Shown here piece by piece: positions 12,409 through 13,332 of a stretch of 43,324 bases of DNA. Every line of letters starts with the position of its first letter. The stretch's first letter is position 1. The stretch is from a virus: positions 1-43,324 of IMG/VR virus record IMGVR_UViG_3300042691_028514; one strand, 5' to 3'. The notes beneath the pieces were generated by a model. It saw nothing but the letters and a program-made list of their open reading frames with translations. It did no database searches and was not told the origin of the DNA. Made by a program: the position numbers and the translations under genes.

Positions 12409-13239
12409 TTATTGATCGTATCCTTTTAATAATTCATTAACCATCTCATCAGATAGTTCTTTTGTTGGATCAGAATCATCATCATCTACTACAGAACTAA
12501 CTGGAGATTTAGCTTGTGTTTTAATTTCAAATGTTTCTTTAACAACAAAATGCTTGAGCCACATATCCATTAATTCTTGCTCTGATTTAATTTGATTTAC
12601 CGCAGTCAAATCATGAACACTATTATAGATTTGTTCCATCTTTTCTTCAGAAAGATTTAAACTTACTGGAGATGTAAATCTGCTACTATCATAAGCAATA
12701 TAATCACCCTGTTTTTCAACTTTTAATTTAAAATTGACTCCATCTTTAGACAAATCAAACACTTTAGCACCAAATTCATCTGAATCATCACCACTAATAG
12801 CAGATTCGATGATATTGTTTAATTTCTTACCAAATCTAAAAATTTTAACTGTTCCGTTGTTTGCTGGTGTAACCGGATCATCAACAACATATACATTTAC
12901 ATACCATTGTTCTTGCCACTTAACTGCTTGCACCTTTTTCTTTTCTTCTTCTGTTCCAGTTTTCTTAATTCTAAAGGTTTCAATTCCAATTGGATCTGGC
13001 TTGCCAATTGTTTGCAAGCTCAATGCTGAAACATATTCACCTGTTGCAAAACTATTCCAACCATGTTGGAAGTAATGAAAAAAAGTTTTACTTGGATCTG
13101 CGATATTTGGAAGCAAACGTAATACATAAGTATTACCTGCTTTAAATTTTAAAATTTCTTTATATAAAGGATTTCCACCGGATTTTTCGCTTTTGTTCAA
13201 AGCTTCTTTAATTGATTCAAATAATGATGAATTATACAT
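12409..13239 (-). CDS. 32: Single-stranded DNA-binding protein, T4 gp32-like, lacking zinc cysteines
   Basis: The 276-residue protein coats single-stranded DNA during replication, recombination and repair and controls its own translation in T4. Features include the N-terminal L-F-E-S-I-K-E-A-L basic helix for cooperativity and Y-V-L-R-L-L-P-N-I near residue 38. H-G-W-N-S (H59) is at the usual histidine position, W-Y-V-N-V-Y-V-V-D-D-P near 111-121 is followed by V-K-I-F-R-F-G-K-K, and an acidic tail (D-D-D-D-S-D, ending L-L-K-G-Y-D-Q) binds partners. The protein contains no cysteine at all, so the T4 zinc site (His-Cys-Cys-Cys) is absent. Eighteen CTAA repeats precede the ATG and no Shine-Dalgarno is visible. 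Confidence 0.92.
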   Translation of the reverse strand: MYNSSLFESIKEALNKSEKSGGNPLYKEILKFKAGNTYVLRLLPNIADPSKTFFHYFQHGWNSFATGEYVSALSLQTIGKPDPIGIETFRIKKTGTEEEKKKVQAVKWQEQWYVNVYVVDDPVTPANNGTVKIFRFGKKLNNIIESAISGDDSDEFGAKVFDLSKDGVNFKLKVEKQGDYIAYDSSRFTSPVSLNLSEEKMEQIYNSVHDLTAVNQIKSEQELMDMWLKHFVVKETFEIKTQAKSPVSSVVDDDDSDPTKELSDEMVNELLKGYDQ

Positions 13240-13242
13240 AAT

Positions 13243-13317
13243 TTAGTTAGTTAGTTAGTTAGTTAGTTAGTTAGTTAGTTAGTTAGTTAGTTAGTTAGTT
13301 AGTTAGTTAGTTAGTTA
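13243..13317 (-). repeat. (CTAA)18 microsatellite forming the gene 32 leader
   Basis: On the plus strand 13243-13314 is 18 perfect TTAG units followed by TTA; read on the minus strand the gene 32 message has a CUAA array ending four bases before AUG. The predicted late start point (about 13319) lies at its upstream end, so nearly the whole leader is repeat. It is unstructured RNA with no G, a suitable cooperative binding lattice for gp32, and carries UAA in every frame. Confidence 0.95.
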
Positions 13318-13324
13318 AAAATAT

Positions 13325-13332
13325 AATTTATA
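13325..13332 (-). promoter_or_regulatory. Late promoter TATAAATT upstream of the gene 32 repeat leader
   Basis: This is a 7/8 match to TATAAATA on the minus strand. T4 geometry puts +1 at about 13319, two bases before the CTAA array; the leader would be about 80 nt. Confidence 0.55.

Follow-up and report, generated by a model that had tools for sequence, protein, structure and literature searches.

A perfect microsatellite, 18.75 copies of CUAA in the mRNA, forms the leader of gene 32 in the DNA of the T4-like phage analysed here (a stretch of 43,324 nucleotides, referred to as the window). The anatomy of this leader is conserved among relatives, its repeat number differs between nearly identical contigs, and arrays of this kind are enriched at gp32 genes. 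We suggest, with a probability of roughly 0.55 and on the evidence of sequence comparison, that the array is the open lattice of an autogenous gp32 operator lying over the gene 32 initiation site. By analogy, our best reading is that it would play the part that the unstructured half of the gene 32 operator has in T4.

Anatomy of the gene 32 leader

Gene 32 (12409–13239, minus strand, ATG at 13239) encodes a homologue of the single-strand DNA-binding protein (276 aa) with an acidic C-terminal tail. Its product matched the profiles PF08804 gp32 (E=1.7×10−20) and phrog_224 (E=1.7×10−41), and the T4 gp32 core structure 1gpc in a profile comparison (E=9×10−18). These matches confirm the gene assignment of an earlier, sequence-only reading, and the leader thus belongs to a gp32-family gene, as in T4-type operators. 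An AlphaFold model of the protein, built from 12 sequences, was uninformative (pLDDT 37), and a search of cellular genomes for relatives found none.

On the plus strand, TRF detected TTAG×18.75 with 100% match at 13243–13317; the unit on the gene strand (minus) is CTAA. The trinucleotide ATT (13240–13242, minus strand) separates the array from the start codon. The sequence CTAACTAACTAA, at no more than one mismatch, was found 17 times in the window, every time within this array, compared with a mean of 0.61 and a maximum of 4 in shuffled sequence. Folding predicted that 96% of the array is unpaired. The 40 nt before the gene 32 AUG contain no G, which is unique among the 58 ORFs of the window, and in this stretch without G no Shine-Dalgarno sequence was found. 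The sequence-only reading had described a perfect 4-bp array as an unstructured, G-free leader lacking a Shine-Dalgarno sequence, and all of these points held. Of the span it assigned (13239–13332), the part at 13243–13317 is array, but the rest takes in a hairpin and the sequence TATAAATT. It had also noted that UAA in every frame blocks read-in. The stop codons are indeed there, but any CTAA array has them and blocked read-in is therefore no additional clue. Since CTAA and its complement TTAG both place stops in all frames, such arrays can only be intergenic.

In gene-strand order, TTGACA-N16-TATTAT (13374–13347) is followed by a 10-bp A-U hairpin (13338–13316), the array, ATT and ATG. The −35 box TTGACA (13369–13374) and the −10 box TATTAT (13347–13352), separated by 16 nt and with TGC just upstream of the latter, form a sigma70-type promoter on the minus strand. 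Transcription is predicted to start at about 13340, which would give a leader of about 100 nt; the −10 box ends about 107 nt before the ATG. A TTGA-type promoter was present upstream of 13/13 leaders tested in the clade of relatives described below. Eleven other genes of the window have a TTGNNN-TANNNT promoter with the −10 box ending 5–10 nt before the start (about 0.15 in shuffled sequence). They look leaderless and the 107-nt gap at gene 32 looks exceptional, which suggests that leaderless mRNAs are the rule for promoter-driven genes of the window. Short distances from −10 box to start are found, for example, at 13978–14667, 25884–26279, 26988–27455 and 32111–32539.

The hairpin, UAAGAAUAUA-AAU-UAUAUUUUUA (13316–13338, minus strand), lies at the 5′ end of the predicted leader and is weak (RNAfold, −4.2 kcal/mol). 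Compared with dinucleotide shuffles, its p-value was 0.003, and that of 11 clade leaders combined was 4×10−6. A hairpin of diverged sequence occurred at the same place in 6/10 non-redundant relatives. It was better than the shuffles in the window and in L003, L005, L007, L009 and L013. L015 had a weaker one, and no hairpin was present in L008, L011, L012 and L014. No pseudoknot was found in the gene 32 leader by nested folding, which cannot exclude one, and an Rfam scan of the region 12900–13700 returned no family near its gathering score.

The late box that the sequence-only reading placed immediately upstream of the array did not stand. This sequence, TATAAATT (13325–13332, minus strand), lies within the hairpin, is not conserved in L003, L005 and L007 and occurs at background frequency, with 24 copies on both strands of the window compared with 20 of TATAAATA. 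We therefore rejected a late promoter for gene 32, whose conserved promoter has the form TTGACA-N16-TATTAT. The phage has a late-like motif of its own near start codons, TAAATAAT, in the form TAAATAA(T), which ends 3–5 nt before 10 of them (sites at 3779, 4501, 8497, 14701, 26300, 27448, 29679 and 41238 on the plus strand, and at 33956 and 8486 on the minus strand). Judged by its position, this motif is likely the better late-promoter candidate and would also give near-leaderless mRNAs.

Conservation of the leader and turnover of the repeat unit

An IMG/VR protein search yielded a clade of 15 loci with gp32 identities of 63–92%, whose leaders have in common a tract rich in C and A but free of G, as well as the TTGA-type promoter. 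CTAA was present in 13.25 copies in L001, 11.25 in L002 and 15.75 in L005 and L006. At the same place, L003 and L004 carried 5.8 CTAAA pentamers, and L007–L015 had predicted leaders of 34–96 nt without long arrays. Independent contigs thus carry arrays of other copy numbers and units at the same site, and an assembly artefact, an objection that the sequence-only reading had raised against itself, was rejected. L001 and L002 are 99.8% identical across 6943 bases and their arrays differ by exactly two units; these 8 nt equal the total gap count of their alignment. The length of the array is therefore prone to slippage, as had been proposed.

Over their final 40 nt, 13 clade leaders together contained 3 G vs 108 C (C about 21%), while control intergenic leaders had 11.6% G and 10.1% C. 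The last 30 nt were free of G in 12/12 non-redundant clade leaders vs 9/146 control intergenic leaders. Relatives lacking any repeat or A/U-rich leader, which the sequence-only reading would have counted against an operator, were found among distant gp32 genes (about 54% identity or less; L016–L080), but every close relative had a G-free leader. The ATG of the distant genes is mostly close to the −10 box, with little or no leader, and these genes appear leaderless. An operator of this kind is thus not general in the wider group, and the regulation of gene 32 may differ between neighbouring phage groups.

We also scanned viral contigs for exact arrays and obtained 100 stretches of (CTAA)5, 80 of them listed, and 37 of (CTAAA)4.8. 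A collection-wide search for CTAAA×3.8 lying no more than 12 nt from an ATG matched 37 contigs. Here, gp32 accounted for 4/17 distinct downstream genes (at least 80 aa) vs 1/345 other genes in the same contigs (Fisher p=1.6×10−5), in a test that is conditioned on arrays because the gp32 loci were found through them, and whose four gp32 lineages are homologous and hence not wholly independent trials. The genes following CTAAA arrays included the gp32 genes of L186, L194, L197/L218, L211, L214 and L220, of which L186, L194, L211, L214 and L220 were found via their arrays and are unusable for the frequency of arrays among gp32s. The permuted unit CATAA, scanned as a control, occurred in 9 contigs, none of them with gp32.

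Taken together, the unit at gp32 was CTAA in the window, L001/L002 and L005/L006, CTAAA in L003, L194, L211, L214, L220 and L186, and CTAAAA in L234. L234, with about seven copies of the hexamer, and L211, with its CTAAA unit, have gp32 proteins that are 87% identical. The unit itself thus changes between near relatives.

We rejected the possibility that arrays are confined to gp32, since other genes carry them too. Among the matches listed, the phage groEL genes of L087, L104 and L112 had (CTAA)5–6 ending 0–6 nt before the ATG, and CTAA or CTAAA arrays also preceded HNH nuclease, peptidase, tail and virion genes. The phrog_378 gene of L085, which belongs to a different family of SSBs, is preceded by (CTAA)7 and then a Shine-Dalgarno-like AAGGA. 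This array was found in five contigs with the same gene (L085, L113, L123, L148 and L159).

The operator reading and its alternatives

In T4, UUAAA/UAAA elements and a pseudoknot are both essential for autorepression of gene 32 (PMC535899; reviewed in PMC3014915), and the T4 leader contains TTAATTAAATTAAATTAAAAAGG. The RB69 operator has diverged; its leader is unstructured from A(−1) to A(−45) and carries UUAAA/UUAA elements (PMC535899). UAAA-type motifs turned up again among the gene 32 leaders of about 20 other known phages, as in AATCAAACTAAACTAAACGAG of Klebsiella phage ER54 and AAATAAATTAAAGG of Aeromonas 31.2, and no long array was seen there. Among the papers of the library that we searched, none described tandem repeats in the gene 32 leaders of phages related to T4.

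Like the T4 operator, the window leader belongs to gene 32 and has, after a putative folded 5′ element, unstructured, A/U-rich YUAA(A) repeats into the initiation site, the predicted unpaired array ending 3 nt from the AUG. Unlike T4, it has CUAA instead of UUAAA, 18.75 copies vs about three, no G, and a weak A-U hairpin in place of the pseudoknot; the Shine-Dalgarno sequence that lies within the repeat region of T4-type operators is absent. With RB69 it shares the diverged sequence, the unstructured stretch and elements akin to UUAAA/UUAA, but RB69 has a pseudoknot and a Shine-Dalgarno sequence and no long tandem array. Since the Shine-Dalgarno sequence is absent and a pseudoknot was not found, we do not class the leader outright as a T4-type operator. 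Most likely, it is a pared-down version of such an operator, in which a sigma70-type promoter and a weak 5′ hairpin precede a long lattice free of G that lies over an initiation site lacking a Shine-Dalgarno sequence. The operator proposal of the sequence-only reading thus gained comparative support from the recurrence of YUAA(A) repeats before gene 32 across distinct gp32 lineages and from the essential UUAAA elements of T4 (PMC535899); its late-promoter component was lost.

Situated about 107 nt ahead of the AUG, the sigma70-type promoter would give an mRNA with a short hairpin first, followed by a G-free CUAA tract that would not pair with itself and would run into the AUG. On this open tract, ribosomes would load without help from a Shine-Dalgarno sequence. 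Once there is more gp32 than single-stranded DNA to bind it, about 10 monomers, at a site size of about 7 nt (PMC10484735), would cover the tract cooperatively and block initiation. We infer that gp32 binds and represses through this leader in a manner dependent on its length and on the gp32 dose. Length, openness and absence of G would matter more than the exact unit, which would leave slippage free to alter the number of copies as well as the unit, to 4, 5 or 6 nt.

Of the accounts that cover the exclusion of G, the turnover of units at a fixed place, the preference for gp32 and the T4 precedent, this operator reading is the simplest. Against it stand the weakness of the hairpin, its absence from some relatives, and the presence of arrays at genes other than SSB genes. 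In addition, gp32 binds with little sequence preference, so that the model alone leaves the choice of the gene 32 mRNA unexplained. How a sequence-indifferent SSB selects its own mRNA has been a question since the T4 work. Perfect G-free repeat leaders of varying length in several lineages offer a natural series for asking whether repression depends on lattice length and openness alone.

Chief among the rival explanations is a leader that is simply unstructured and serves initiation, as a standby site for 30S or a landing site for ribosomal protein S1. Such a leader would allow high gp32 output without a Shine-Dalgarno sequence and without gp32 regulation through the tract. The predicted openness of the array and the missing Shine-Dalgarno sequence fit this explanation, as do the arrays just before groEL. 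The TAACTGA repeats of Beggiatoaceae, which replace the Shine-Dalgarno sequence before start codons at about 170 sites in one bacterial genome, have been interpreted along these lines (PMC4679880). They are likewise short tandem repeats just upstream of starts, but their unit is a G-containing heptamer and shows no gene preference. By itself, however, a plain leader accounts neither for the gp32 enrichment nor for the parallel with the UUAAA operator elements of T4, and most other promoter-driven genes of the phage manage without a leader. We regard it as somewhat doubtful. Neutral slippage, the chance expansion of a C/A-rich non-coding stretch that serves at most as a spacer, would explain why copy number drifts freely (11.25 vs 13.25 in contigs that are 99.8% identical) and why similar arrays of an intergenic-only word occur elsewhere in viral contigs. 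It is improbable, since G is excluded from every clade leader, with or without an array, while C stays at about 21%, since units have re-arisen at this one gene in distinct gp32 lineages, and since the control unit CATAA was seldom seen and in no case at gp32.

The UAA-rich tract could also be the target of a different repressor, for instance a protein of the RegA type. In vitro, the RegA of RB69 prefers UAA triplets (PMC3014915, citing Dean et al. 2005), which would suit the tract. Nevertheless, PF01818 was not found in the window or in the contigs of eight relatives (one of 236 kb; contigs may be incomplete), while the same search found it in T4, S-SSM7 and Melnitz-3. We consider such a target highly improbable.

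If the array is the lattice of a gp32 operator, the number of CUAA units might set how many gp32 monomers a leader holds, and a single slippage event might then retune the SSB set-point. The device might have re-evolved several times in T4-like lineages with 4-, 5- and 6-nt units. This extension is speculative and, on balance, unlikely. Copy-number tuning has a bacterial precedent in Moraxella uspA2 (PMC7302503). Expression there is graded by the number of units in an upstream (AGAT)n tract, which like the CUAA array has a 4-nt unit; the gene, however, encodes a bacterial surface protein, the effect was measured at the mRNA level and the unit contains G. If true, gene 32 would be a phage example of a microsatellite tuning an essential gene.

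Other features of the window

Two ORFs just upstream of gene 32 (13358–13672 and 13533–13946, minus strand) overlap by 140 nt in different frames, and neither matched a Pfam or PHROG family. A broken gene 59 or a sequence error was rejected as an explanation, because L001 and L005 carry this pair as well. The window contains no tRNAs. A 12/36-bp repeat (CCAACTCCTAAA...) occupies 30831–30985, inside the ORF at 30114–31022.
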